Virus record (IMG/VR): IMGVR_UViG_3300048015_000010
Coordinates: 1-37,785 of that record
Reading direction: 5' to 3' (one strand)
Origin: a virus
DNA: 37,785 bases
In this document: positions 3,172 to 28,749 of the stretch, in pieces
Layout of the letters: each line of letters starts with the position of its first letter
How positions within the stretch are numbered: the first letter of the stretch is position 1
Program-made: the position numbers and the translations under genes
The notes under the pieces: generated by a model
Told to the model about the DNA's origin: nothing
The model's database searches: none
The model's input: the letters and a program-made list of their open reading frames with translations, nothing else

Positions 3172-6100
3172 ATGGGCACGGCTGTAGATGTAGGTGACGC
3201 GCAGAGCCAGCTTCAGCAGGCCCGGCAGCAAGCGAACGAGCAAGCCAAAGACATTGGCATGGGCTCGCTCGATGTCACCCGAGAACCCGCTGGCGTTTCG
3301 CCTCCGCCGAAGCCGCGCACCGGCAGGCAGCAAGCACTCCCGCTCACCGATCCGACACCCGCACAAGCCGAGGTTCAGCCCGCGCAGCCCGCTGACGCCG
3401 ACTCGATCCCGCACGGGAATCTGCAACCTACCCCGCCTCCTCCACCTACGCCGCAGCAAGCCGCCGTCAAGCCGGGTGTCTGGGATCAGACAGGCAGCGA
3501 AGTAGGCAACGGCGCCGTTCGCGGATTCGCAGAACTCGGCCGCGCCGCGATGCTCATGGAGGCGGCTCCGGCCATTGCCGACGATGCATTGAACTCGTTC
3601 GTCAGTGGCAAGCGCACGACCGAAAACCAGGACAAGTTTTTCCAAGCAATCGACAAGGTGATCAATCCGGCGATTGATTACTGGAAACCCGATGACCCTT
3701 CGAAGTCCGGTTTGGGTGCGCAAGTCGCCGGCGATGTGGCGGGAGTGATACCGGCGCTTCTGACTGGCCCCGCCGCATTACCGGCGCTGACTGAGAAGGC
3801 TGTCACCGACGCCGGTATGCAGTCGATCCAAGAAGGCCAAGACGCGAAGACCGCTGCGATTCTTGCGACCGTGGCCGGTGTTGCCAACGTCGCCGGAATG
3901 AAGATCCCGCTCAAGTCGCCCAACATCTGGAAACGCATCGCGTCCAGTATCGGCGGCAACTTGGTGATCAACGAAGCCAGCCAGACGCTAGCGAAAGAAA
4001 TCCTGAAATCGGACGGCTATCAAGAAGCTGCTGACAAGATCAACCTCGCCGATCCTCGCACAATATTGTCGACACTCGTTACGGCCATCGGTTTCGGTCT
4101 TCATCGCCAAGCCGGCGCAACCACGAAGCAGGCTGACCAGAACGTACAGAACGGTACCAAAGTCGGGCAGCCGCCTGCGCCTGACACAGATCTCGCCACT
4201 GCGCCTGACGGCACGCCGGCCCCTCCGCCGCCGCCGTCACCGACCGATGCGACAGCTACTTTTTCGAAGGGCAAAACCGCTGAAGGAGCCCCGGTCACTC
4301 CCGTTGATCCAACTGCTGGCCCGGGCGTACAAAAGATGCGGGTGGCTAGGCCGGGGGAAAACCTGTCAGCCACAGCCCCCGCACCATCTTCGGTGCCGGA
4401 CCAGCCGTCCATTGAGCCCGCCAAAGATCTTCGTGCCCAAGTCCGTGACATGAACGACAAAGCCACGCCGCGCGTGGGCGTCTTGGTTACTACTGACTCG
4501 CTCAAGGGTATGGCCGGCTCGAAAGACGCCAATGCGCTGAGCGTGAACGGCACGCTGAACCAGGCGAGATCTCAAAACCGCACGGTCGTCTTGCCGCAAG
4601 GCGAATTGATTTTGAAGACCGCCAAGATCGCCGAGGTCACGCGGCAGCGGCTCGCGTCGGGCGAAGACCCGCAGGCTGTAATCGGCTCCGTGACTGGGGC
4701 CGGCGATGGTAAGACTCCTGATGCGACAGCCGTAGTACAAGGCAAGGATGCTCAAGGCGCTGTGACCACCGAGACCATGGTCCATCCGGACAACGTGGAT
4801 CAGGCCGTGCGCGCCGTCGAAGCACAAGGTAAGACACCCGTAGTAACAACTCCGGTCGAAGCTGTCCAGCGCCGCATCGACGCCGTGAGCCAAGAGCGCA
4901 ACTCACCGACTCAGCTTGGCATCATGACGCATCCGGACGGCACCGACATACCAGTGCAAGTCGAGCCTAGCGAAACTCCTGGCATGGTTCGCGTGCGCAA
5001 ACTCGACGCCGACGGCGAGCCTGAGACCAAGACGATTGACGTGGACAAGTCTCGTGTTAAGATCGGTGCGCCTTCTAAGGAAATACGCCCTGAGACTAAG
5101 GTGCCGTCCGCTATCGGTGCGGAGCCGGAGCTAACACCAAAGCAAGCCGAGACACCTACGAAGGCCGCTGATACGCAAGTGACAGCGGAGCGCGCTCCTG
5201 CCGTAAAGCCGAGCGAGACGCCCGCAGATAGTACAGCGCAAGGACAGACGGAGGAGGCCCCCGCTGGTAAGACCGGGGGAGAACGGGCGACTGAGGATGC
5301 CGTTGTCGGAACTGAACCGGACACCAGTACCAAGACTTCTGAGGATACCTCCCCGTCTGCGCCTTCTTCCCAGCCACTGGGATTCACCCCCGGCGAGTCG
5401 GGCAAGGGCGCGGAAGCCGCAGCCCGCCGTGCGCTCAAAGCACCGAAGATTCAAACTGGTCTCGAAGCTCTCCCCGCAGCCCTGGAGGAACATGAGAAAC
5501 AGGAAACCCCGCAGCCCGGTCGCAAGAACGTCCCGCTCGCCGAGCGCCAAGAAAACGCCAGCACCTTTGCGGCTGTTCTCAAAGCCGCTGCGGATTCTGC
5601 CCGGGGTAAGGTCGATGTCTCCGCAATCGAACGAGCGACGCGCGCAGCGAAAGCGGCTGAGAGACTCTCAGAGAAAGGCAAAGAAGAAACTGCAAAGGGC
5701 CAAGGAACTGGACACGTCAAGGTCACAGCCCTTGTCAATGAAATGCACAAAGCAGCCCGAGGACTACTTGGCACTGCTCGCGAAGGGGACGACGTTGTTG
5801 TCAAACCAAAAGAAGTAGAGCTTCAAGCCAAGCGCGAGCGTGAAGCCGCGCGCGTCAAGAAGGCCGCAGGCATCGAAGAACCCGAGCCCGCGACGCCGCG
5901 AGTGCGCAAGAGCCTCAAGAAAAAAACAGGAGAAGTCATCGGCGACTTGAAAAAGACGGCTCCGAAATCCAAAGCCGAGATCGAGCGCGAGGGCCAGCGG
6001 CTCACCGAGCGGTATATCAACGCCGATGAAGAAGACCTGCCCAACGCACATAAGGCCGTCGAAGATTACTTGAAAGAACACTTCGCGGACCAGTACACGC

Positions 6101-9100
6101 CGGACCAGACCCGCGACATCCTGCACTTGCTGCAAGAACGCCGCTTGGAAGAAAACCCCGACGCTGTGAATAACGGCCCACGTCGCATGTCGGACACCAT
6201 CGAAGACGAAGAACAGGTCCACGAGACTGAGCCCAAGACTCTCAGGACACTGGGCCTGCGCAACGTGGGTAAACATGCTCTGGAGTTCGCGGCCAACAAG
6301 GCCGCTGCTCTCAAGAACATGGTGTTCAATAATAAACTGCACACGCAGTACCAGAACATGACAGCGTCGATGCTCAAGGGCGGAGCCTTCCGGGACTTGC
6401 TCAGCGTTCGCGACACGGGGCGCGGGCTCAGTACGCACGCCTTGCTTGATACCATGATCTCGCACACAGTGCATGGCACCGAGCTAAGCGGCCTGCTCTC
6501 GAACCTGCGCAGGCACGTACCGGACCTGCCCGTCCATGTGGTGTCGCACGTGATCGACTTGCGCAGCGGCCAGCCGTGGGAGCGCGCGAGCGGATTGTTT
6601 GATCGGGCGTTGAACTCTATTCAGGTTGCTCCAGCCCACGACATGCCTATCGCGACGATCCGCTCGCTGGTCCATGAAATGGTGCACGGCGCGACCGAGT
6701 ATGAGATTAAAACAAACCCCGACGGCCCACTCGCCCACGAACTCAGGGTCGCGCTTGCGGTGCTGCGTAACCGCATGGCCCGCAAATACGGTACCGAAAA
6801 CGTAGTGGCGCATCTGGATTATTTCAGCGGCGAACGCCAAGAAGCTCCGGATAACTACAAACGTTCTTTGTACGGCCTTGCCAACATATCCGAGTTGCTG
6901 GCTGAACTCCACGTGAACCACGATTTTGTCCAAGAGATCGTGGACTCCGAGAAGTACGCTGACCCCAAAGAAGACGCAAAACTGGGCATGGAGGCGCAGC
7001 CCAAACCGAACGGCTTGCTGTATCGGATCTACCAGAGCATTGGCAAGTTCTTTGGTATGAACGAGCCAAAGCTGTTGTCGCATATCGCGGGACTCGGCGA
7101 GGGCGTCATGGGCGAGCAGCGCGCCAAGACCTACGGTCGCGAAGACAACGTGTCAGGGCTACCACCATACGCTGGCCTATCGAAAACCAAAGACCAGTTC
7201 GAACGCAGCATGGTCCAAACGTTGCACGCCACCTTGGGCGCCAACCCCTTGGAGATCAGCCGCGCGTTGCCGAGCTTCGAGGAAGTATCTCGCGAGCCTG
7301 GCCCGCTCAGAGGCGTAGAGTCCGAGATCCGTGCGAGCTTCGAGGACGCTGCCGAAGAACCAACCCGCGTCGCGCGGTTGTTCAAGCAAGCCATGAACTC
7401 TGGAATAGTCGACGGTGTCAGATCTGTCAAGACTATGCTCAAAACAGTCCCGCAGATCTTCCGTGATCACCGCCGGGACTTCGGAGATCGCAACGACCCG
7501 GAGAATCCGCTCAACAGGCTGCAAGACATCGACCATCAAAAGAACGCGATCATCCGAGATCTGTCGCAGCACAGCCGCGACATCGTGCGCCAGTGGAACC
7601 GACTGAACTCAGAAGACAACAAGACAGTCGGCACGATCATTCGCGACTGGACCATGAACAAGATCGACCCGCGCAAAGACGCGGCGTCGCAAATCGAGGG
7701 CGCACAAGAGTCCAAGTACAACGAACTTGCATCGCAGTGGACCAAGCTCCAAGCCGACCGGCCCGATCTCGCCAAGCTGGTCGACGGTGTTTTCAATGCC
7801 AACAAAGCCCTCGCACGAGCGCAGCGCCGCGCAAACATAGACACGGCTCTCGAAGCGTTCTCTGACACGCCTGTCACAGACGCCCAGAAGACTTTGCTCT
7901 ATGCCGCCCGCACACCGGCCGCGTTCGACGAAGTCGTTGGGCCGGGCAAGCTGATCGACATGGGCGAGAACAACGACAAGCTCAAGGCCAGTCTCAAAGA
8001 CTTCGCCGGCCAAGCTGAACTCAATGGTCCCTACGCGCATCTCGGGCGCCATGGAGAATACGTCGTGTCGGCCGATCCCGAAGGCACCAAGACTTTTCGG
8101 TCTGAACAAGAAGCCCGCGCATTTGCCAAGCAGACCAACGAGCTTTCCCCCAACAGCAAGGGCGAGTATGTGTTCCGAGGCGGCCAGCATCAGGTCGACT
8201 ACAAGATCCAGTACACGAGCTTTCACGAGACCCGGAACGATGCACTCGAAGAACGCGACCGGCTGTCCAAAGCCGGGTACGTCGTCGGCGCCGTGACGCG
8301 CAAGACCATGAGCCGCGCGGACACGCCCTTGAGTGCCGGCGCGCGGGATCTTTCGGCGGCTGTGGAAGCCAAGATCAACCGCAACGGCGAGAGCCCTGCG
8401 AACACGGCCTTGGTGGCAGCGTTGCGATCAGCCATGCTGCACCTGGCCGCGAGCCGGTCTGCCTATGCAGGGTCGCGCCTTGCCCGCAAAAACTTTGCGG
8501 GTGTCAAACCCGAAGAAATGCGCCGGAGCTTTGCCGACCACACGCAGTCGACCATCTGGCATACGGCGCAGTTACGAACCACGTTTCCGCAGGCCGCCGC
8601 GCTCGCGAAGCTGCGTAACATGTCGCGTGATTCGATGGGCGCCGATCAGAACACACTGTTCCGTCGAGGCCAAGCGGTCGAGGCATTGAACAAGCATCTC
8701 CAAGACGAGGTCCAGAACTACGGACACAAGTCCCCGACCAACGCGTTCATCGCGAAGCTGGGGTTCATGAGCTTCCTGGCTTCGCCGTCGCACGCCGCCA
8801 TCTGGATGACGCAGAACTTCACGACTGGTATTCCGGCCGCTGGAGCCCGATGGGGATACGGCCGCGCGAGTTCGACTTTCTTACACGCCATGGGCAGCGT
8901 GCTGAGCCCCGCGATGCGGGACGCAGTGAACGAGAGCTTCGCCAAGGGCGGCTCGACTAAGGACGCCAATGAAGCCATGATGCGTGTGATCTCTAAGCAC
9001 GACCGCTGGGGCAAGTGGGCGCCGCAGATCCAGTCCATGATCAACGACGGCGTGCTGGGTCATGGCTACGGCAACGAACTTCACGAGATGGCGCAGTCGA

Positions 9101-10269
9101 CCGGGCCGCTGTCTGGGCCTGTCAATAGGGCGTTCGACTTTGCCAGATTGCTGCCGGCGATGGCCGACAGCTTCAACCGTGTTAGCACGGCACTCACTGC
9201 GCTGGAACTCACGGGTGGCGACGTGCGCAAAGCCAGCGACTTCGTAGACGAAGTCCATGCGGATTATTCGCAGGGCGCTAAGCCGCTCGCGTTCAAGAAG
9301 ATCGGCCGAGTCCCGGGCATGAACTCGATCACGATGTTCAAGACCTATACGCAGTCCATGATCCATTTGTTCTATGGGAACATGAAGGCTGCAATAGATG
9401 GGTCTGGAGAAGGCGGTCGTATGGAAGCTGCCAAGACTGCGGCAGGAATGGTGGTAGCCAACGCGCTGTTCGCGGGCGTGTATGGCGCAGCGGCTATCGA
9501 GCCTTTGAAGCTCGCGGTCTATGCGTATCACAAGCTGTTTGACAAAGAGGGTGAAGTGTTCGACCTGAAGAACGCGATCCACAACTGGCTCGTGGAACAT
9601 CTGGGTCGTACGGCGGGGGACGCGGCGGCCGGCGGCTTGCCGCATTTGGCGGGGTTTGATCTGTCCAGTCGGATGGGGCTCACGGATTTGTTCTTCCATG
9701 ATCCGCCGGATTTGCTGACTTCTGACAAGGAGGGTTGGAAGAACTTCGCGTACGCGCAGGGCGGCCCGATGCTAGATTTCTTGGGATCGCGCACGACGGA
9801 GTTTGTGGGCCACATGAATCGTGGCGAGGGGTTCCAGGCGATAAGCTCGCTGGTGCCTATTAAGGCATATCAAGACATGTTGAAGGCATTTGAGTTGGGC
9901 ACTACCGGCAAGACCAACTCGATTGGCGGGCGCATGACCAAGCCGTCCATGAGCGACGCGGCGTGGCAGGCGTTGGGGTTGAAGCCGTCATCGGTTGCGG
10001 ACGCGCAGGAAGCTGCGAACACCAAGATAAGCTATCAACAGCAGGTTAAGGCGACCAAGGAAAATATCTTGAAGGCTTGGGCGGGTGCGACCGGCGACGA
10101 GCGGCTTAAGGCACAGGCGCGGATCAGCCAGTTCAACCGGCTGCATCCGTCAGAGGCGATCAAGCCAACGGAGCAGCGGTCCATGATGAAGTACCGTCAG
10201 GAGTCTCAGGGCAATGCGCCGACTCGGGACCGGACGCTCAACGACATGCTGAGCTACACGCGCAAGTAG
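3172..10269 (+). CDS. Giant polyvalent-type internal virion protein with zincin metallopeptidase motif, 2365 aa
   Basis: One uninterrupted frame of 2365 residues, in the size class of giant virion proteins that podophages inject with their DNA (T7 gp16 and N4 gp50 are functional parallels). The N-terminal third is low-complexity (Pro-rich ~345-360, then Lys/Glu/Ala-rich to ~1000). A zinc metallopeptidase motif HEMVH lies at residues 1168-1172, with acidic candidates for a third ligand in the SELLAEL segment (Glu1241, Glu1245). Beyond ~1800 come hydrophobic segments (~1859-1880 and ~2090-2115). The region ~2010-2085 resembles the large polyvalent protein domain LPD38; that assignment is from memory of the family. 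The ATG at 3172 follows a GGGGTGA ribosome-binding site. Likely role: packaged protein that enters the host early and may cleave host or virion proteins. Alternative: purely structural with a decayed protease. Confidence 0.85.
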   Translation: MGTAVDVGDAQSQLQQARQQANEQAKDIGMGSLDVTREPAGVSPPPKPRTGRQQALPLTDPTPAQAEVQPAQPADADSIPHGNLQPTPPPPPTPQQAAVKPGVWDQTGSEVGNGAVRGFAELGRAAMLMEAAPAIADDALNSFVSGKRTTENQDKFFQAIDKVINPAIDYWKPDDPSKSGLGAQVAGDVAGVIPALLTGPAALPALTEKAVTDAGMQSIQEGQDAKTAAILATVAGVANVAGMKIPLKSPNIWKRIASSIGGNLVINEASQTLAKEILKSDGYQEAADKINLADPRTILSTLVTAIGFGLHRQAGATTKQADQNVQNGTKVGQPPAPDTDLATAPDGTPAPPPPPSPTDATATFSKGKTAEGAPVTPVDPTAGPGVQKMRVARPGENLSATAPAPSSVPDQPSIEPAKDLRAQVRDMNDKATPRVGVLVTTDSLKGMAGSKDANALSVNGTLNQARSQNRTVVLPQGELILKTAKIAEVTRQRLASGEDPQAVIGSVTGAGDGKTPDATAVVQGKDAQGAVTTETMVHPDNVDQAVRAVEAQGKTPVVTTPVEAVQRRIDAVSQERNSPTQLGIMTHPDGTDIPVQVEPSETPGMVRVRKLDADGEPETKTIDVDKSRVKIGAPSKEIRPETKVPSAIGAEPELTPKQAETPTKAADTQVTAERAPAVKPSETPADSTAQGQTEEAPAGKTGGERATEDAVVGTEPDTSTKTSEDTSPSAPSSQPLGFTPGESGKGAEAAARRALKAPKIQTGLEALPAALEEHEKQETPQPGRKNVPLAERQENASTFAAVLKAAADSARGKVDVSAIERATRAAKAAERLSEKGKEETAKGQGTGHVKVTALVNEMHKAARGLLGTAREGDDVVVKPKEVELQAKREREAARVKKAAGIEEPEPATPRVRKSLKKKTGEVIGDLKKTAPKSKAEIEREGQRLTERYINADEEDLPNAHKAVEDYLKEHFADQYTPDQTRDILHLLQERRLEENPDAVNNGPRRMSDTIEDEEQVHETEPKTLRTLGLRNVGKHALEFAANKAAALKNMVFNNKLHTQYQNMTASMLKGGAFRDLLSVRDTGRGLSTHALLDTMISHTVHGTELSGLLSNLRRHVPDLPVHVVSHVIDLRSGQPWERASGLFDRALNSIQVAPAHDMPIATIRSLVHEMVHGATEYEIKTNPDGPLAHELRVALAVLRNRMARKYGTENVVAHLDYFSGERQEAPDNYKRSLYGLANISELLAELHVNHDFVQEIVDSEKYADPKEDAKLGMEAQPKPNGLLYRIYQSIGKFFGMNEPKLLSHIAGLGEGVMGEQRAKTYGREDNVSGLPPYAGLSKTKDQFERSMVQTLHATLGANPLEISRALPSFEEVSREPGPLRGVESEIRASFEDAAEEPTRVARLFKQAMNSGIVDGVRSVKTMLKTVPQIFRDHRRDFGDRNDPENPLNRLQDIDHQKNAIIRDLSQHSRDIVRQWNRLNSEDNKTVGTIIRDWTMNKIDPRKDAASQIEGAQESKYNELASQWTKLQADRPDLAKLVDGVFNANKALARAQRRANIDTALEAFSDTPVTDAQKTLLYAARTPAAFDEVVGPGKLIDMGENNDKLKASLKDFAGQAELNGPYAHLGRHGEYVVSADPEGTKTFRSEQEARAFAKQTNELSPNSKGEYVFRGGQHQVDYKIQYTSFHETRNDALEERDRLSKAGYVVGAVTRKTMSRADTPLSAGARDLSAAVEAKINRNGESPANTALVAALRSAMLHLAASRSAYAGSRLARKNFAGVKPEEMRRSFADHTQSTIWHTAQLRTTFPQAAALAKLRNMSRDSMGADQNTLFRRGQAVEALNKHLQDEVQNYGHKSPTNAFIAKLGFMSFLASPSHAAIWMTQNFTTGIPAAGARWGYGRASSTFLHAMGSVLSPAMRDAVNESFAKGGSTKDANEAMMRVISKHDRWGKWAPQIQSMINDGVLGHGYGNELHEMAQSTGPLSGPVNRAFDFARLLPAMADSFNRVSTALTALELTGGDVRKASDFVDEVHADYSQGAKPLAFKKIGRVPGMNSITMFKTYTQSMIHLFYGNMKAAIDGSGEGGRMEAAKTAAGMVVANALFAGVYGAAAIEPLKLAVYAYHKLFDKEGEVFDLKNAIHNWLVEHLGRTAGDAAAGGLPHLAGFDLSSRMGLTDLFFHDPPDLLTSDKEGWKNFAYAQGGPMLDFLGSRTTEFVGHMNRGEGFQAISSLVPIKAYQDMLKAFELGTTGKTNSIGGRMTKPSMSDAAWQALGLKPSSVADAQEAANTKISYQQQVKATKENILKAWAGATGDERLKAQARISQFNRLHPSEAIKPTEQRSMMKYRQESQGNAPTRDRTLNDMLSYTRK

Positions 10270-17167: not shown

Positions 17168-17674
17168 TTACATGTTCCGTTTGAGTATCTTCCGGCGCCC
17201 ACGTGATTTCTTATGCAAGTTGGCATCGGGTTTCTCCTCGGCGTCCAAGATCGTGTGCTGATGCGGGTTGTGGTCCTTGAAGATCTTTTGCAAGTGTTGT
17301 GTGATCGCGGCCATCTGCCCGTCGATGAAGCCTTTCAACTCGGGCTGCGCGGGCGGACGGTCGTCGGTCAGCTTCCCCGAATGGTAGGCATCAAGAATAA
17401 TGCCCACACAAGCAAGGACGCTAGCCAGGTGAGGAACACCGGTATCAGCGTCCGCCCATTCGCCGTTCTGATAAGCAGCCACATGACGTGAAATAGCGTC
17501 GAGATAGATGGAAACACGCACACCAGCGACACGCCAATTATATTTGCCATATTTTAATGCTCCTTCGGTAAACGCCAGGGCGGCGTAAGCTTGAACGACA
17601 GATGGAACCAAGTGCATGGCGAGCTTCTTAGAACCGACGGCGTCCTTGGGGTTGGTGGGTTTCAGGTCAATCAT
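17168..17674 (-). CDS. dATP/dGTP diphosphohydrolase-like protein (DUF5664, MazG-like), 168 aa
   Basis: The N-terminal ~110 residues match the all-helical dGTP/dATP diphosphohydrolase pattern: NPKDAVGSKK, then EGALKYGKYNWR, then YLDAISRHVAAYQNGEWAD with its acidic/His metal-binding set, and a conserved HLASVLACVGIILDA helix. Such enzymes hydrolyse purine dNTPs to monophosphates. The C-terminal ~50 residues are a basic, disordered extension (KKSRGRRKILKR). The start overlaps the downstream end of the 76-aa membrane gene by ATGA at 17671-17674. A relative called MazZ serves phages with 2-aminoadenine DNA, but no PurZ is visible here. Confidence 0.85.
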   Translation of the reverse strand: MIDLKPTNPKDAVGSKKLAMHLVPSVVQAYAALAFTEGALKYGKYNWRVAGVRVSIYLDAISRHVAAYQNGEWADADTGVPHLASVLACVGIILDAYHSGKLTDDRPPAQPELKGFIDGQMAAITQHLQKIFKDHNPHQHTILDAEEKPDANLHKKSRGRRKILKRNM

Positions 17675-17901
17675 GCAAGCTCCTTGTTGCCAAACTTCAA
17701 AGAATTAAACCAGCGCCGCAGGATGTAGCTGCGAGCCAGGGAGATCCCTGTGTACATCAAGCCCATGAGGAAGTTGTTGCCGGGGCTGATGTGCATACCG
17801 AACAGAGGAAAGATCAGCAGGTTCGCAAAGTAGTTGATCGTGAACCCAATAGCGATGTTGGCCCATGCCTCGGCGATGGACCCCTTACGCGTCTGACTCA
17901 T
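17671..17901 (-). CDS. Small phage membrane protein (DUF7220-like), 76 aa
   Basis: Start is the ATG at 17899-17901: GGAGG lies five bases upstream and the codon overlaps the preceding stop as ATGA; the longer reading to 17913 would include the ribosome-binding site itself. There are two predicted membrane helices (NIAIGFTINYFANLLIFPLF and a second from FLMGLMYTGISLARSYIL), then a positively charged tail. This two-helix layout with an N-terminal RKGS-x-EA segment matches a small phage membrane family of unknown role. Holin activity is possible but unsupported. Confidence 0.8.
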   Translation of the reverse strand: MSQTRKGSIAEAWANIAIGFTINYFANLLIFPLFGMHISPGNNFLMGLMYTGISLARSYILRRWFNSLKFGNKELA

Positions 17902-19457
17902 TGAAGCCTCCATTTTCCATTGACGATGATGATCAACTGGCGCTTGCCATCCGCGTGAAGTACGCAGTGCGCGTTGAGCCAGGAACTCGGGCCGCTATTG
18001 TACTCAAGCCTGAGCCTGGTAGAAGTACCAACTTGGTAGCAACCTTCTTCAATAGCTGGTGAATGACTGTGCCCGATGATGGATCGTACTCCGATCCGAC
18101 GTAGGTTCTTGGCGGATCCCCTTGAACCGTTTGGACCACGGTCGCCGTGCATCCCGAGTTCCACGCCTCCTAACACGAACGATTCGTTGCCTCCAAGACA
18201 CCTGAACCGAGGGTCCGGTTGCCGCAGCTTGAACCAGTGCGGGAACGGGCTCGGGTACTCAGTGCCGCCTGGCCCCATCTTGGTATCGCGGATCATGGCC
18301 CAGGCTGTGGCAAGATAGAACTCCGCGTTAGTCGGGTCGCTGCGCCAGTCGGTAGAGATCACCCAGCGTCGCAAGAAGTCATCGTGGTTCGAACTCACGA
18401 TGATAGACATCACGTCGGGCGGAGTCTTCTTGGTGACGTGATCTACCGCTCGAAAAACTTCTTCTTTAACCCGGTCCGCACCAGCTTGGCGCTTAGCGAA
18501 AGAGTTGAAAGGGTTGCCCGCGTGGTGAGGATTAGCGGAATATCCGTCCAAGAGGTCGTGCCAGACGAGATGATGCGGTTCAAGCTGGCCGATAATTTCG
18601 TCTGTCGCAGACTCAACTTTGCTGTCGATAAAGTCCACGTGTGTATCGCCCATAACAAGAGCGAGCGGGCGCGGGGCACGCGTCGCCTTTCCAGGTAGAT
18701 AGCGAGTCTCAAGATCAGTGAAGCTGCCAGAAGCTTTATCATAGTTGACTTGCCTTATATGAAAAATCGGTCCGTCGATCTCGACTATCAAAGCTGCCAG
18801 GGCGTGATGGAACTCGCCTTTCTTGCCGGCGTTGCTGTCTGTGTAGTTGGGCAGCGTGCAGGCCCCCGTGGTCGTGATGATCTTTGCCATCTTGTTAGAC
18901 GGCGTCGCAATAGACCGCATCGCTAACTTGGTGTGTGCGATGATGGCAGACTCTTGACCTGAGATAGATTCGAACCCTGACAGCGGGTCGCTCGCTGTCG
19001 GCTGAGTTTTGATATCGCCCAACAGCAACAAGTTCTTGTTCATCAGGCGCCGCGCGTTGTACAAGAACGGCTCGACTTCTTTGGCCCAGAGTTCCAGGTT
19101 CATTTGGGATCCGGTCCAGCGCGAAGTAGGGTTTTTGTACCTGATCGGCACGACCAGCAACTCGGCGTCGAGGGCTTGGCGGGCTGTCTGCAAACACTCC
19201 CAGAACTCTTTGTGCACCGGCGTCGCGTTCTGCGCAGCCGTGATGATGAACGTCTTGGCGCCGGGTCTGATCGGCCGCTTGAACACTACGGGGCGCTTCG
19301 CAACGTCCCCCTTTTTATTGGTCATAGGGCCGTCCGGATTCGTAGTTGAGGAACAAAAAACTTCAAGCGGTCGACACTCCCAGCGGATCCTGCCACTGGG
19401 CGCTTTGCCGTGCTTCTGCAGCGGCCGTCCGCATTTTTTGCAGTTAGGTCTTGTCAC
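17898..19457 (-). CDS. Metallophosphoesterase with N-terminal zinc ribbon, 519 aa
   Basis: The C-terminal half is a calcineurin-like metallophosphoesterase: MGDTHVD (Asp271, His273), SSNHDDF (Asn357, His358), a His in GMHGDRG (~434) and GHSHSP (~461). The N-terminal ~35 residues contain a Cys4-type ribbon (CKKCG near 6-9, Cys28, Cys35). Residues ~65-250 are a separate region of unknown fold (FIITAAQNATPVHKEF, NLLLLGDIKTQP) resembling a nucleotide- or nucleic-acid-handling module. It may act as a phage phosphodiesterase or exonuclease; the substrate is unknown. The start is the GTG at 19455-19457, overlapping the upstream gene by 14 bases, with no strong Shine-Dalgarno. An internal ATG at codon 45 is a less likely alternative because it would remove the ribbon. 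Confidence 0.85.
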   Translation of the reverse strand: MTRPNCKKCGRPLQKHGKAPSGRIRWECRPLEVFCSSTTNPDGPMTNKKGDVAKRPVVFKRPIRPGAKTFIITAAQNATPVHKEFWECLQTARQALDAELLVVPIRYKNPTSRWTGSQMNLELWAKEVEPFLYNARRLMNKNLLLLGDIKTQPTASDPLSGFESISGQESAIIAHTKLAMRSIATPSNKMAKIITTTGACTLPNYTDSNAGKKGEFHHALAALIVEIDGPIFHIRQVNYDKASGSFTDLETRYLPGKATRAPRPLALVMGDTHVDFIDSKVESATDEIIGQLEPHHLVWHDLLDGYSANPHHAGNPFNSFAKRQAGADRVKEEVFRAVDHVTKKTPPDVMSIIVSSNHDDFLRRWVISTDWRSDPTNAEFYLATAWAMIRDTKMGPGGTEYPSPFPHWFKLRQPDPRFRCLGGNESFVLGGVELGMHGDRGPNGSRGSAKNLRRIGVRSIIGHSHSPAIEEGCYQVGTSTRLRLEYNSGPSSWLNAHCVLHADGKRQLIIIVNGKWRLQ

Positions 19458-24495: not shown

Positions 24496-24610
24496 GTATA
24501 TCTCCTAGTAAGAACTCTGATACCAAGCCTATCAAGACAGCCCCCAAAGCCACCCCGTCATTGTTCGTAACGATGGCGACCACGGCGATGCAGGACAACG
24601 CTGTTCTCAT
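24482..24610 (-). CDS. Tiny hydrophobic membrane protein, 42 aa
   Basis: A 42-codon frame whose ATG (24608-24610) overlaps the VWA gene stop as ATGA and whose stop lies inside the next gene start. It begins MRTALSCIAVVAIV and continues with GVALGAVLIGLVSEFLLG, so two short hydrophobic segments separated by TNND dominate it. It fills a gap that would otherwise be 111 bases. Coupling by ATGA on one side and overlap on the other support translation. Function unknown; a small holin-like or regulatory membrane peptide cannot be excluded. Confidence 0.6.
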   Translation of the reverse strand: MRTALSCIAVVAIVTNNDGVALGAVLIGLVSEFLLGDIHERD

Positions 24611-25800
24611 GCGGCCCCCCGCTTGATGTCCACATGGACCGTCACGCCCCACGGCGCTTCATTGTCGGTCGTCATGCACCAGACCGTAGGAATCCCAGTG
24701 TCCTCGCCGAAAGGAGTATACCCATCCGTGAACACCACGAAGGTCTCGATTGGAAGTTGCTGCTCCGCAGCCTCGGTGAACCCGACAGTCATGTCGGTGC
24801 CGCCTCCGCCGCCCGCTTGCTGTCCAAGCTCTTGCAGTTGGTTCACATCGTCGATCTCGATGAACACGCCGTTGTGTAGCCGGTCATCCACGTAGCCCAC
24901 GTGGACCATCTCCGGCTCCAGGTCGGTAAGAATCCCGCCAAGCTCGCCCAGGAACGCCTGAAGCTCGTCCTGCCCGATGGACCCCGACGTGTCGATGATC
25001 ACGCCGATATGCGGGCCTTTGAATCCTGCGCGCCCCGGGAAGTACACATGAGGAGGCGTGGCTAGCTTGCGCCGGTTGGGCCTGGACCACGTATGCGTGT
25101 CGCGGCCACGAGTCAGGTTGGTCATGGCCTTCCTGAGATGTTCGTGCCAAGGTATCTGCGGGTCGCAGATCTCGTCGATCATACGCTGCGCGCCGCTCGG
25201 CAAGTCCTTGCCCTGCATCTTGCTGATCTCGGCAGCCTTGGTCAGCGACGCCTGGAGCATGGCCTTGTCGACTTGGGTCCCCTGGGGCTGTGGCAAGTGG
25301 TCGTCGAAGTTGTCTTTGTCATCGTCGTCTGGAAGCTTCAAATACACTTCGTCGACAATGTCATCGCCCGTTACCTGGGAGTTTTGCAGCGTGCCCAGCG
25401 GTAGCTTGAACCCGGCCTGTGTGAGATACGCATTGATGATGTAGTCGCAGGCTTGATTGAACTTCTTGGGAGAGAAAGTTTTCAAGTCGGGTCCAAGACC
25501 CAGCGACCTGTACATGCTCAAGCGAGAGTTGTGCTGCAAGATTGTGTGCATGACTTCGTGAGCCAGGACACCCACACGCTCGTGGATGTTTAATTTCCCG
25601 AACTCGTCCGGGTTGATCCAGAGAGTCCTGCCGTCAGTGGCAGAAGTCTTCATGGCCGTGTTTTCACCCGGCACGGTCCGGGTTTCCTCGATGTTCATCA
25701 AGTCCAATACGAGGCTGGCAAAGAATGGCTGCTGGACCAGCAGGGCTGAGATAGCTTCCGTCACGCACTGAGATCGTGCGGCGGGCTGCTTTTGGTTCAT
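24607..25800 (-). CDS. VWA-like protein with zincin metallopeptidase domain (DUF2201 type), 397 aa
   Basis: Partner of the upstream MoxR ATPase. The N-terminal domain has HEVMH at residues 81-85 inside the ERVGVLAHEVMHTILQH helix, the putative metallopeptidase part of the DUF2201 family, and an NQACDYIINAYL segment supplying further residues. A short acidic linker (DDDDKDNFDD, ~158-167) precedes the C-terminal VWA-like fold with its MIDAS: DTSGSI at 270-275, Thr335 after a Gly run, and FTDG with Asp359. AAGGAG lies six bases before the ATG. In known MoxR/VWA pairs the VWA protein recruits substrate or metal to the AAA+ ring. The target here is unknown; both metal sites look intact. Confidence 0.9.
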   Translation of the reverse strand: MNQKQPAARSQCVTEAISALLVQQPFFASLVLDLMNIEETRTVPGENTAMKTSATDGRTLWINPDEFGKLNIHERVGVLAHEVMHTILQHNSRLSMYRSLGLGPDLKTFSPKKFNQACDYIINAYLTQAGFKLPLGTLQNSQVTGDDIVDEVYLKLPDDDDKDNFDDHLPQPQGTQVDKAMLQASLTKAAEISKMQGKDLPSGAQRMIDEICDPQIPWHEHLRKAMTNLTRGRDTHTWSRPNRRKLATPPHVYFPGRAGFKGPHIGVIIDTSGSIGQDELQAFLGELGGILTDLEPEMVHVGYVDDRLHNGVFIEIDDVNQLQELGQQAGGGGGTDMTVGFTEAAEQQLPIETFVVFTDGYTPFGEDTGIPTVWCMTTDNEAPWGVTVHVDIKRGAA

Positions 25801-25815
25801 CTACTTCTCCTTGGG

Positions 25816-26091
25816 TTATATCGCAAAGCGCGATAGTTTCTTGGCGCGAATATTCCCTTCGTTGACCAGCATCGTCCGGCCTGACCCGTCATGGAACAGG
25901 CACCAACGATACAGTCGGCCGTCTTTTTCCTCGGTGATCGTTGTCCGAGAGATCCTGACACCACGCACGAAGTATTCATGCGTCGTATCTTTGTAGGCCG
26001 GCCCCCACTGCGCGACTATTACCCCGATATCTTCAGGGATCTGCGAGTAGCGCAGGGGAGGGCCGAATTTATTATCATCGACTATGGTCAT
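25816..26091 (-). CDS. Unknown small phage protein, 91 aa
   Basis: Strand-rich protein (GVIVAQWGPAYKDTTHEYFVRGVRISRTTI, RLYRWCLFHDG) with no motif recognised. GGAG lies five bases before the ATG, which overlaps the preceding stop by ATGA (26088-26091). It lies between the coiled-coil protein and the VWA protein, so it could belong to the MoxR/VWA set, but nothing in its sequence says so. Confidence 0.7.
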   Translation of the reverse strand: MTIVDDNKFGPPLRYSQIPEDIGVIVAQWGPAYKDTTHEYFVRGVRISRTTITEEKDGRLYRWCLFHDGSGRTMLVNEGNIRAKKLSRFAI

Positions 26092-26327
26092 GTGGTCTCC
26101 TTCAGCAAGGCAATCATCGCGTCGATCTCGGCAAGCTTTTCTTCCGTCATGTTGCCGAACGAGCTTCGGTCGTAGCAGGTATATGTGACGAAGCCATCTC
26201 TACGGCGCCATTTCGAGACGTGGCAAAAAGTCCTGTAACTCCACCCCTCGACGTGACGGCCCTTGAACTTATTCCACAGCTTCCGGTTGACACACGTGTC
26301 CCATTTGTATCGCGCTAAGAAGTTCAC
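26088..26327 (-). CDS. Unknown small basic protein, 79 aa
   Basis: The start is a GTG (26325-26327) overlapping the preceding stop as GTGA; the stop overlaps the next start as ATGA. The protein is rich in Arg, Lys, Trp and aromatic residues in its first 55 positions (YKWDTCVNRKLWNKF, WRRRDGFVTYTCYDR) and ends in an acidic helix (MTEEKLAEIDAMIALL). The double overlap supports expression. No family recognised. Confidence 0.7.
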   Translation of the reverse strand: MNFLARYKWDTCVNRKLWNKFKGRHVEGWSYRTFCHVSKWRRRDGFVTYTCYDRSSFGNMTEEKLAEIDAMIALLKETT

Positions 26328-27241
26328 TTCCAGATCTCCTCAAGGGACGCTTCGACAGCCAAGCGGGCTGCGTCGTCTGCGACTTCAGCGGCCAGTCTGG
26401 GATCGTTGCGGTAGGCTTCGACGGGGCGTTGGAGCAACTGCTTCTCGATGTCATCCGCAAGCTTGGTGAGCTTCGGATTATTATGCAGATTCATTGTTTT
26501 GGCAAGCGATACCAAGTCCTGCATGTTGGTCACGAGACTGTCGTACATGCGAGTTTTTTCACCGTCGCCCTTCTTGCCGAGTTGCTTCGCCATGCGCTGG
26601 AGTTCTTCCAGCATCTTGCCCTTGAGTTCGTCCAGTGCGACACCGGCCTGGATCAAGTTTTGCTCGGCGACACGCTGGCCCAGAGCCTCGGACAACTCTG
26701 CGGGCACTGCCACTCGGGCGAAGTCCGATACAGCCGGCACGGGCCTGAGATCAAAACTTACCGCGAACTTGTCAGGAAGCTCGGCGGCAGTCGGGTACTC
26801 GTCGGTTACGCGGGCCATGCCTTTGAGATTAACCCTGGCCTGAGCCACGCGCTGGTCCCACACGTCTTGCAACCGTGCCACAGCCTTGTCGTGTTCATGC
26901 TTGATCGCGTTGACTTCCTTCATGAGTTCGAAAGTCTTGGTTGCGGATACCAAACGCTCGCCGCGCTTGGGTCCGACGGTGTTCGCTGAGAACGTCAGCG
27001 TTCTCGCATATACCATGGCTCTGATCTGATTCTGATGATGGATTACCTCTAGGTACTCCGCATCAGCGTCAGCCAAGAGGTTCTTTACGAAACGTCCGGC
27101 GGAGCGCGTTGCCCCGTTAGCTAGGATCGTATCGTCCGATGCCTGGCGGTCTGTTTTCTTACTGCCCCATGACTTGAGTTCAAGATCCACGAGCATGTAA
27201 TTACTAGCCAAGGCTTCGTTTAGCTCACGTGCGTTTGACAT
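26324..27241 (-). CDS. Coiled-coil protein of the MoxR/VWA cluster (possibly DUF3150-like), 305 aa
   Basis: Predominantly helical, with long charged heptad-like stretches (~100-145 around LMKEVNAIKHEHDKAVARLQDVW and ~195-260 around LDELKGKMLEELQRMAKQLG). The N-terminus has a YMLVDLELKSWGSKKTDRQ segment, similar in layout to DUF3150 proteins, which on integrative elements sit beside MoxR- and VWA-type genes. That relationship is inferred from layout and neighbours only. AAGGAGG precedes the ATG by about three bases. It could be the adaptor of the MoxR/VWA machine. Confidence 0.75.
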   Translation of the reverse strand: MSNARELNEALASNYMLVDLELKSWGSKKTDRQASDDTILANGATRSAGRFVKNLLADADAEYLEVIHHQNQIRAMVYARTLTFSANTVGPKRGERLVSATKTFELMKEVNAIKHEHDKAVARLQDVWDQRVAQARVNLKGMARVTDEYPTAAELPDKFAVSFDLRPVPAVSDFARVAVPAELSEALGQRVAEQNLIQAGVALDELKGKMLEELQRMAKQLGKKGDGEKTRMYDSLVTNMQDLVSLAKTMNLHNNPKLTKLADDIEKQLLQRPVEAYRNDPRLAAEVADDAARLAVEASLEEIWK

Positions 27242-27665
27242 TTGCCTCCTTAAGATAATTAGTTGCTTTCGCCAAACCTGCTAGGGAATCACCTAACAGA
27301 CCAATGCCGGTGTTGCAGTTCGAGCATAACCACCCGCGAAACTTCTTCTGTTTGTGGTCGTGATCGTTATGCAATCGCTTTTTGCCGCGTAACAATCCGC
27401 AGCATTCGCATCTCATCGGCATTGGTCTAGTAGGTGTAGGGTACTTAGACCGCTGATTGTAGTGATACCATTTTAATCTATTTTTCTTGTAGTAGGCACG
27501 CGCGGCGGCCCTACATGCCGCTTTGTTGCGTTTATAGTATTTGCGCTGGGTCGCGTTTTTCTTTTCGCGGTTGCGGGCCGACCACGCCCGCATCTGGGCT
27601 AATTTCTTAGCTTTGATGCGGGCGTAGCGGGCTTTGTCATACCGCTTTTTAAGCAGTTTATCCAT
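27225..27665 (-). CDS. Recombination endonuclease VII family HNH nuclease, 146 aa
   Basis: The C-terminal half matches the endonuclease VII fold: zinc ligands Cys86 and Cys89 (CECC), the LHNDHDHKQKKFRGWLC active-site segment with His99, Asp101 and His102, and Cys114 and Cys117 (CSNC), followed by NTGIGLLGDSLAGLAKA. The N-terminal 80 residues are a very basic Lys/Arg/Tyr/Ala helix, likely DNA-binding. T4 endonuclease VII is 157 aa, so length is normal. It could resolve branched DNA before packaging, or act as a free-standing homing-type nuclease. It lies inside the MoxR cluster and its DNA is more AT-rich than its neighbours, which suggests a later insertion. Its start overlaps the MoxR gene end by 8 bases. 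Confidence 0.9.
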   Translation of the reverse strand: MDKLLKKRYDKARYARIKAKKLAQMRAWSARNREKKNATQRKYYKRNKAACRAAARAYYKKNRLKWYHYNQRSKYPTPTRPMPMRCECCGLLRGKKRLHNDHDHKQKKFRGWLCSNCNTGIGLLGDSLAGLAKATNYLKEANVKRT

Positions 27666-28749
27666 TACTCATATTGATAAGTGCTTTATTCTGGTGGATC
27701 CATTTTATCAATGCCGGCGAATTGAGTAAAGCGGATCCACTCCGCTCCAACAACGACTTCGCCATCGACACTTGGACTTCCTTGGGCAGCCGCTCGGTGT
27801 ACTGCCACAACTTGTCGATGTTGCTACCCTTGGCATAGTGGATGCACATCTGGCCCGCCGCCCAGCCCGCCGAGAGATCCTTCGGACACTTGGCCGCCTT
27901 CGGATCCGCGACGATCTCGTCCAGCGTGGGAAGCTGGTCGTGGATCTTCAGGAACCCGAACATGTCGGCCGCCGCACCCTCACCGATATCACCCATCACG
28001 GCCTGCTGCACCAGCGAGTCACTGGGCAATTCCATCTCTGTGATCCTGCCTTCCGCATCGCGGGCTAGGCCCACTTGCAGAACCTTGGCAGCACGAGTCA
28101 CAGACCGCGCCGTCGCGAACGGCCGGTCGGTCGCCGGCACCTCGTTGACGAACGCAACGGTCGGATGCTGCTTCGCCCAGGCGATGATCAGCGGGTGAAT
28201 CCCGTTGGCCTCCGCCCAGATCGACCATGATAAAGCATCGTTCTCGATGTTGATCTCGGTCACTCGGTTACGGACGTGCGACGGCTGTCGCACGACACCG
28301 GCGCGGTCGGACATGCGATTACTCGCACACCAGACTTGCCAACCGTCGGGCAGCTTCTCGTTGCCGAACCGCTTGTCCAACAACACTGGGGCCAGGGCTT
28401 TCTGCGTGAGCATCTCCGCAGATGACAATTCATCTACGAAGTAAATACCACGCGGATGCTTCTCCAGATATTCTTTGGACGGAAGCTCGGGCGAACGGGT
28501 GAACGCCGAACCCGCTGTGCCGTCGGGATTCTTGATGGGCAGCAGAAATCCCTTGTAGTCCGGCGCATCCAGCGCCGGGGCCAAAGAATCGTGAAAACCA
28601 AACTGCTCGCCATACTGCGCGGACAGTTGCTTCACGATCTCGTGCTGAACGACCTGCGTCTTGCCACAACCCGGCGGGCCTACCAGGCTCACCGTATTGC
28701 CAGCCTCATACAGACGCGGAGCCAGCTTCACTAGATCGAGTATTCGCAT
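27658..28749 (-). CDS. MoxR-type AAA+ ATPase, 363 aa
   Basis: Ring ATPase of the MoxR group. Walker A GPPGCGKT is at 24-31, Walker B in GIYFVDELSS (Asp106, Glu107), sensor-1 in WCASNR (140-145), and an arginine-finger candidate in HVRNRV (~159-164). The RPFATARSVTRAAK segment (~210-223) fits sensor 2. Such ATPases work with VWA-domain partners to remodel or load metal into target complexes; a VWA/zincin protein is encoded 1.9 kb downstream in the same operon. AAGGAG precedes the ATG by seven bases. The start overlaps the upstream 150-aa gene by 44 bases. Confidence 0.92.
   Translation of the reverse strand: MRILDLVKLAPRLYEAGNTVSLVGPPGCGKTQVVQHEIVKQLSAQYGEQFGFHDSLAPALDAPDYKGFLLPIKNPDGTAGSAFTRSPELPSKEYLEKHPRGIYFVDELSSAEMLTQKALAPVLLDKRFGNEKLPDGWQVWCASNRMSDRAGVVRQPSHVRNRVTEINIENDALSWSIWAEANGIHPLIIAWAKQHPTVAFVNEVPATDRPFATARSVTRAAKVLQVGLARDAEGRITEMELPSDSLVQQAVMGDIGEGAAADMFGFLKIHDQLPTLDEIVADPKAAKCPKDLSAGWAAGQMCIHYAKGSNIDKLWQYTERLPKEVQVSMAKSLLERSGSALLNSPALIKWIHQNKALINMSNG

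Follow-up and report, generated by a model that had tools for sequence, protein, structure and literature searches.

Gene products gp24 and gp25 of phage N4 are encoded by core genes of N4-like phages; their function is unknown, and gp25 has been noted as a vWFA protein (PMC4193335, PMC7650795). A comparable pair, a MoxR ATPase with a metallopeptidase-vWA protein, was described in 2021 in group 2.2 jumbo phages, for which a role in virion assembly was proposed by analogy (Iyer et al., PMC7824862). The NorQ/NorD system shows how such a pair can work: a finger of the VWA protein enters the pore, its C-terminus contacts the post-sensor-1 loop, and its metal ion-dependent adhesion site (MIDAS) engages the target (PMC9976466, PMC13036017). 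Here we describe a related locus in the virus record IMGVR_UViG_3300048015_000010 (the window is this whole stretch of 37,785 bases), where a module at 24607-28749, with all genes on the minus strand, combines a MoxR-type AAA+ ATPase and a zincin-VWA protein with a DUF3150-like protein.

On balance, we favor the view that this locus encodes a three-component, ATP-driven remodeling machine of the MoxR/VWA type, borne by mobile elements, whose target is most likely an early nucleoprotein or enzyme complex and not the virion. The ATPase/VWA pair was already known: a previous sequence-only reading of this DNA had found it unclear why a phage carries one, but the pair is nothing unusual, being a core-gene pair of N4-like phages that had also been described in jumbo phages. 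In the open-access text searched, no mention of DUF3150 was found, and neither the DUF3150-like component nor the tie to plasmids appears to have been described there.

Organization of the locus

On the minus strand, from 28749 down to 24607, the genes encode the ATPase, an endonuclease VII-like protein, a 305-residue protein, two small proteins of 79 and 91 residues, and the zincin-VWA protein. The genes and their key motifs are as follows:

27658-28749, minus strand: MoxR-type (helix-2-insert clade) AAA+ ATPase, 363 residues, counterpart of N4 gp24 (PHROG_1297, Pfam AAA_5 near threshold, PDB profile matches)
28657-28680, minus strand: Walker A motif GPPGCGKT, ATPase residues 24-31 (sequence)
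28429-28446, minus strand: Walker B motif IYFVDE, ATPase residues 102-107 (sequence, alignment of relatives)
27225-27665, minus strand: endonuclease VII-like gene, 146 residues (PF02945, E 1.4e-13)
26324-27241, minus strand: DUF3150-like protein, 305 residues, putative third component (tblastn, homologs in plasmid trios, hhalign, match of the AlphaFold2 model)
26088-26327, minus strand: small gene, 79 residues (relative of a paralogous pair of small genes at the equivalent place in contig L009)
25816-26091, minus strand: small gene, 91 residues, no assigned family (DNA likeness to the equivalent place in L009)
24607-25800, minus strand: zincin-VWA protein, 397 residues (DUF2201_N plus DUF2201), counterpart of N4 gp25 (PF13203, PF09967)
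25546-25560, minus strand: HEVMH zinc-site motif, VWA-protein residues 81-85 (sequence, alignment of relatives)
25444-25446, minus strand: D119 in N-x-A-x-D, candidate third metal ligand (invariant in 26 of 26 relatives)
24979-24993, minus strand: MIDAS motif DTSGS, VWA-protein residues 270-274 (sequence, alignment of relatives)

The sequence-only reading had placed the module exactly; it counted two small genes where there are three, having overlooked the endonuclease VII-like gene at 27225-27665. Adjacent genes overlap by a few bases, a 15-base gap precedes the VWA gene, and an AGGAG-like Shine-Dalgarno sequence lies just 5' of every module gene except that for the endonuclease. The related contig L009 has a matching gene order, with 73-85% protein identity across the three main proteins.

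The ATPase and the zincin-VWA protein

The ATPase matches PHROG_1297 (ATPase) with an E-value of 7e-63 over residues 2-359, and the version in L009 is 85% identical to it. When a profile of 15 relatives was compared with PDB chains, midasin was matched at 6e-34 and a CbbQ/NorQ chain at 1.4e-9. Sensor-1 N144 and the arginine-finger residues R162 and R215 are present, and the motifs are invariant or nearly so among relatives: Walker A K30 is kept in 25 of 25 covered relatives and Walker B D106 in 26 of 26, while E107 is kept in 22 of 26, the remaining four having D. The four Burkholderiales plasmid ATPases read "DD" at Walker B. Judged by its sequence, the ATPase is a member of the MoxR-type helix-2-insert clade.

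The partner protein consists of PF13203 DUF2201_N (E 2.2e-38; 132.9 bits against a cut-off of 23.2) and PF09967 DUF2201 (E 2e-18; 67.2 bits against 26.4), and it matches PHROG_1314 at E 1.7e-71 over residues 4-392. Both Pfam scores are far above the cut-offs; for the ATPase, the AAA_5 score of 20.2 bits is slightly below the 22-bit cut-off. The profile matches of the two proteins and the conserved motifs bear out the sequence-only assignment of a MoxR-type ATPase and zincin-VWA pair. The N-terminal part of the VWA protein relates to M48 peptidase and selecase chains, both by sequence and by model, and Ro60 is among the VWA domains matched by the C-terminal part (VWA fold with Z 13.2 and a root mean square deviation of 2.6 over 134 residues). 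H85, H90, and the candidate metal ligand D119 are identical in all 26 relatives, H81 and E82 are kept in 25 of the 26, and the MIDAS residues D270, S272, S274, T335, and D359 (DxSxS-T-D) are present in every one. A Variovorax plasmid copy (L022:6935-8221) has lost the HE of HExxH and has retained the trio and the MIDAS. No CobT match was found for the VWA protein in the Pfam scan, where it scores to DUF2201.

PHROG_1314 and many phage records (L003, L006, L008, L047, and others) label this protein "HNH endonuclease," and the record of phage Paride has "homing endonuclease." We rejected HNH endonuclease as its function: all nine members tested consist of DUF2201_N plus DUF2201 and have no HNH domain by Pfam. 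The label conceals the zincin-VWA family from readers.

The DUF3150-like protein

Direct scans of the middle protein against Pfam, PHROG, and NCBIfam gave no match; PF11348 (DUF3150) was absent even at E 1, and PF11348 searches of the relatives in Synechococcus phage MinM2 (L004) and L009 did not reach it either. The relationship emerges through intermediates. The middle protein is 28% identical to a MinM2 protein annotated as DUF3150 (tblastn E 4e-11); tblastn found it in only three phage records, and in the one read out the gene lies between the MoxR and VWA genes. BLASTP connects it to Simplicispira and Rhodovastum plasmid proteins within similar loci, and the Rhodovastum protein, used as a query, led to 42 plasmid records with a DUF3150-like gene, 16 of them typed as conjugative. 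Among the listed plasmid copies, two from Cupriavidus and one from Manganitrophus are annotated as DUF3150; against the PF11348 cut-off of 24.9, a Cupriavidus homolog scores 22.1 bits and the Manganitrophus protein, which was found by the family profile, 35.3. Scans of viral contigs with single proteins brought up at most two close relatives per query.

Profile-profile comparison by hhalign of the middle protein with seven canonical DUF3150 proteins gave a probability of 96.8 and an E-value of 2.2e-10; because E-values of single comparisons are uncalibrated, the shuffle and reversal controls matter, and here 30 column shuffles gave 0.056 or worse and the reversed profile 0.47, with 0.34 for the ATPase profile and 0.52 for the VWA profile. 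The AlphaFold2 model (predicted local distance difference test score, pLDDT, of 77.5) has long helices and three beta strands, which does not agree with the simple coiled coil that the sequence-only reading had seen. It matches eight viral models at E < 0.001, among which the sole informative name is "DUF3150 domain-containing" (E 7.7e-10, TM score 0.61); our structure models were built from smaller alignments that had no plasmid or phage-record rows. A Foldseek search of the PDB with this model found no fold (best E 0.64). VIA-align rows for the same model, with Z up to 10.4, were set aside: they cover mostly C-terminal helices, which match many unrelated helical bundles.

These sequence and model comparisons support the view that the middle protein is a remote relative of DUF3150, not a member by the Pfam threshold, and we therefore refer to it as DUF3150-like. 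The same suggestion in the sequence-only reading thus stands by way of intermediates, controlled profile-profile comparison, and the structural match, and fails as a direct PF11348 match. No DUF3150-like protein was found by family profile in the stretches from a Rhizobium phage, CRP-7, N4, phiFa, and phage G, where a very divergent copy is possible.

Linkage and distribution of the three genes

The ATPase, the middle protein, and the VWA protein each served as queries that brought in loci; the sample is thus driven by similarity and is no random survey. Homologs that never occur together in other phages would have refuted the sequence-only reading, and they do occur together. In 25 of 25 records with both flanks readable, the VWA gene is preceded by an ATPase gene that has the same orientation; this set comprises phages N4, Ab09, EcP1, Bacillus G, Paride, Muenster, Thermus phiFa, CRP-7, MinM2, and RHph_TM3_14A, together with plasmids of Gram-negative and Gram-positive bacteria. 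A DUF3150-like gene stands between the two in 10 of the 25 records, and such homologs come from Planktothrix and Synechococcus phages and from Burkholderiales and Acetobacteraceae plasmids. By tblastn, the ATPase was found in 541 phage records and the VWA protein in 466. The top named phage in the ATPase similarity search has an annotated integrase and attL.

Distance matrices of the ATPase and VWA proteins are correlated (r 0.84, n = 25), as are those of the ATPase and DUF3150-like proteins (0.94, n = 12) and of the VWA and DUF3150-like proteins (0.93, n = 11), each with a permutation p of about 5e-4. This shows that the three proteins have traveled together; correlated distances do not show contact.

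Seven canonical DUF3150 loci were read, and an ATPase was identified by profile in six of them. Five (L037, L039, L040, L042, and L043) have a VWA gene with Pfam matches to VWA and to CobT or CobT_C, L038 has an equivalent VWA/CobT pattern by motif, and L041 has only the ATPase within the stretch. Directly upstream of the ATPase-DUF3150-CobT-like trio of L037 are what we read as genes for Ssb, Bet, and Exo (L037:1352-3971); a nearly identical DUF3150 locus in another genome (L038) suggests a mobile element. The 75-kb Acinetobacter baumannii record pRBH2-3 (L014) is classed as a plasmid and has a gene for DNA-directed RNA polymerase, and its ATPase and VWA genes are arranged in N4-like fashion; it could be a phage-plasmid, or else the genome of a phage that was entered as a plasmid.

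Other genes in and around the module

The endonuclease VII-like gene is absent between the ATPase and middle genes of the closest relative, L009. Its GC content is 0.488, compared with 0.581 for the window, which puts it in the lowest 1.2% of 441-base windows. Because it is absent from L009 and unusually AT-rich for this genome, it is most simply explained as an insert, probably a free-standing homing-type gene that lies outside the machine.

The 79-residue small gene overlaps both neighbors by 4 bases and is related to the L009 small genes (BLASTP 38% identity, E 2e-12). The 91-residue gene had no match in Pfam and PHROG scans; its DNA is 72.6% identical over 197 bases to the equivalent L009 position. 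Tandem small paralogs also separate the DUF3150-like gene from the VWA gene elsewhere, three in MinM2 (L004:12881-13907) and two in L009 (L009:4001-4620), and no relatedness between the MinM2 and L009 sets was detectable by BLASTP.

On the same strand after the module are genes for DNA polymerase A, a RecB-type exonuclease, an SNF2-type helicase, and a primase. Elsewhere in the window, a 519-residue protein encoded among replication genes (17898-19457) matches PHROG_1745, "DNA transfer protein" (E 1.2e-144), and a 168-residue protein (17168-17674) matches PHROG_2252, "endolysin; inhibits RNA polymerase" (E 1.2e-52). A 2365-residue protein (3172-10269) with a C-terminal PLxRFG domain (NF032893, E 4.5e-62) is probably a giant protein that belongs to the virion or is ejected.

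Proposed mechanism and alternatives

In the mechanism that we propose, the ATPase would form a hexameric ring, onto which the zincin-VWA protein would dock through its VWA domain, with the MIDAS metal holding the target. By analogy with NorQ/NorD, the ATP-driven motion of the ring may pass through the VWA protein to the target held there, which the zincin domain would grip or cut. The DUF3150-like helical protein would be a further dedicated subunit, most likely shaping or presenting the target. The target itself, the least certain part of the proposal, is predicted to be a nucleoprotein or enzyme complex that acts early, in take-over, in replication or recombination, or in host defense; we favor such a DNA-linked or host-directed target because the module adjoins DNA polymerase, helicase, recombination, or conjugation genes. 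The family assignments, the invariant ATPase, metal, and MIDAS residues, the linkage of the genes, the correlated distances, the gene neighbors of canonical DUF3150, and the plasmid records speak for the proposal, and NorQ/NorD is its mechanistic precedent.

Several observations weigh against this proposal. The predicted zincin activity is not strictly conserved, as one plasmid copy lacks the HE of HExxH, and neither is ATPase activity, as D replaces the catalytic Walker B E in four relatives. The model of the VWA protein is moderate (pLDDT 67), and a NorD-style pore finger was not seen in it. Simple co-inheritance also yields correlated trees. In most of the pair-carrying phages read, among them N4, the locus shows no DUF3150-like gene, which is thus not a universal requirement, and the case for an early, DNA-linked target is one of gene neighborhoods only.

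Among the alternatives, a counter-defense machine would take apart or degrade a host defense complex, a need of both phages and incoming plasmids. The module is indeed common to phages and conjugative plasmids, a host-facing role would suit its retention in lytic phages, and a related trio lies, by our reading of the sequence, just downstream of the Ssb-, Bet-, and Exo-like genes of the mobile-element-like L037. Even so, we consider this role unlikely: no defense or anti-defense system was matched, and the hosts span several phyla, which means that the target must be general.

If the ring unfolded substrates for the zincin active site, the complex would be an ATP-dependent protease. The HExxH motif with invariant H85, H90, and D119 is consistent with this, and M48 and selecase matches back the zincin fold; however, the Variovorax plasmid copy retains the trio without HE, and monomeric VWA cofactors usually form no chamber, which leaves a protease distinctly unlikely.

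A chaperone for virion assembly, in which the ring and its VWA partner help to build the phage particle, is the published proposal for the zincin-VWA/MoxR pair; Iyer et al. made it for jumbo phages, taking the Acidianus two-tailed virus as their analogy (PMC7824862). The status of the pair as core genes of N4-like phages agrees with it, but in the phages read the module lies near polymerase, helicase, or primase genes, and the trio, complete with its DUF3150-like gene, also occurs on conjugative plasmids that were typed for type IV secretion and whose stretches read contain no phage genes. Virion assembly is therefore unlikely as a general role, and we hold it to be quite improbable here.

We rate as similarly improbable a chaperone that inserts metals or cofactors into a phage or host metalloenzyme, like NorQ/NorD, CbbQ/CbbO, and CobS/CobT. 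On the one hand, the nearest MoxR/VWA pairs among those studied either act in this way or restore enzyme activity, and the neighbors of canonical DUF3150 genes score to CobT. On the other hand, this resemblance may reflect shared VWA architecture alone, no metalloenzyme consistently adjoins the module, and no cobalamin families were matched among the window proteins scanned. That the ATPase/VWA pair alone is a unit, with the small and middle genes as mere passengers that have no relation to it, is highly improbable: N4, EcP1, and Muenster carry the pair without a DUF3150-like gene, and the endonuclease gene is clearly inserted at the window locus, but phages and plasmids from different hosts repeatedly have the DUF3150-like gene between the two, and its divergence tracks that of both.

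The proposed three-component remodeling machine could have a still broader meaning. It is possible, though we would not call it likely, that a ternary MoxR-DUF3150-VWA machine serves mobile DNA in general, being shared by phages, conjugative plasmids, and integrative elements, and that it helps incoming DNA to establish itself by remodeling a complex of the host or of the replicon. If true, this would explain what the N4 core genes gp24 and gp25 do. The links to DUF3150 and to plasmids in any case weaken virion assembly as a general answer, and they make the DUF3150-like protein a testable third subunit.

Comparison with known systems

The MoxR-vWA ternary conflict systems have VMAP, iSTAND, FtsH, or a beta-propeller as their third component (PMC7159879), none of which was matched in the scans made; in the window the third component is DUF3150-like. 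CobS/CobT cobaltochelatase is marked by a CobT-type VWA protein and nearby cobalamin genes, neither of which was matched among the window proteins scanned. Paracoccus NorQ/NorD shares with the window a MoxR-clade ring ATPase and a MIDAS-bearing VWA partner; however, no zincin domain is described for NorD, the system has no DUF3150 component, and its target is nitric oxide reductase. At canonical DUF3150 (PF11348) loci, a related middle protein is encoded next to an ATPase, a VWA protein, or both, but their ATPase (AAA_5/CbbQ_C) and VWA protein are of the CbbQ/CobT type and not of PHROG_1297 and DUF2201.

Among phages, the jumbo-phage pair resembles the window in having a metallopeptidase-vWA fusion that adjoins a MoxR ATPase, whereas its description, in the part of PMC7824862 at hand, covers the pair alone, with no DUF3150 component or plasmid counterpart. 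N4 gp24 and gp25 (PHROG_1297 and PHROG_1314) share both families, their order, and their strand with the window and differ in having no DUF3150-like gene at the locus; the window ATPase is only about 26-28% identical to Schitoviridae proteins. The available passages on N4 in the CRISPRi-ART work name RIIA and RIIB and do not name gp24 or gp25. Synechococcus phage MinM2 and Planktothrix phage Pag-Yong1 have the three homologous genes arranged as here, with small genes interspersed, and they differ from the window in their 25-30% identity, in having three paralogous small genes, and in the lack of an endonuclease insert. The ATPase-DUF3150-like-DUF2201 trios of Burkholderiales and Acetobacteraceae share the three families and their order with the window; unlike it, they are borne by plasmids, and the four Burkholderiales ATPases have DD at Walker B. 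Together, DUF3150 and the plasmid link make the phage pair part of a broader group of modules that mobile elements carry.

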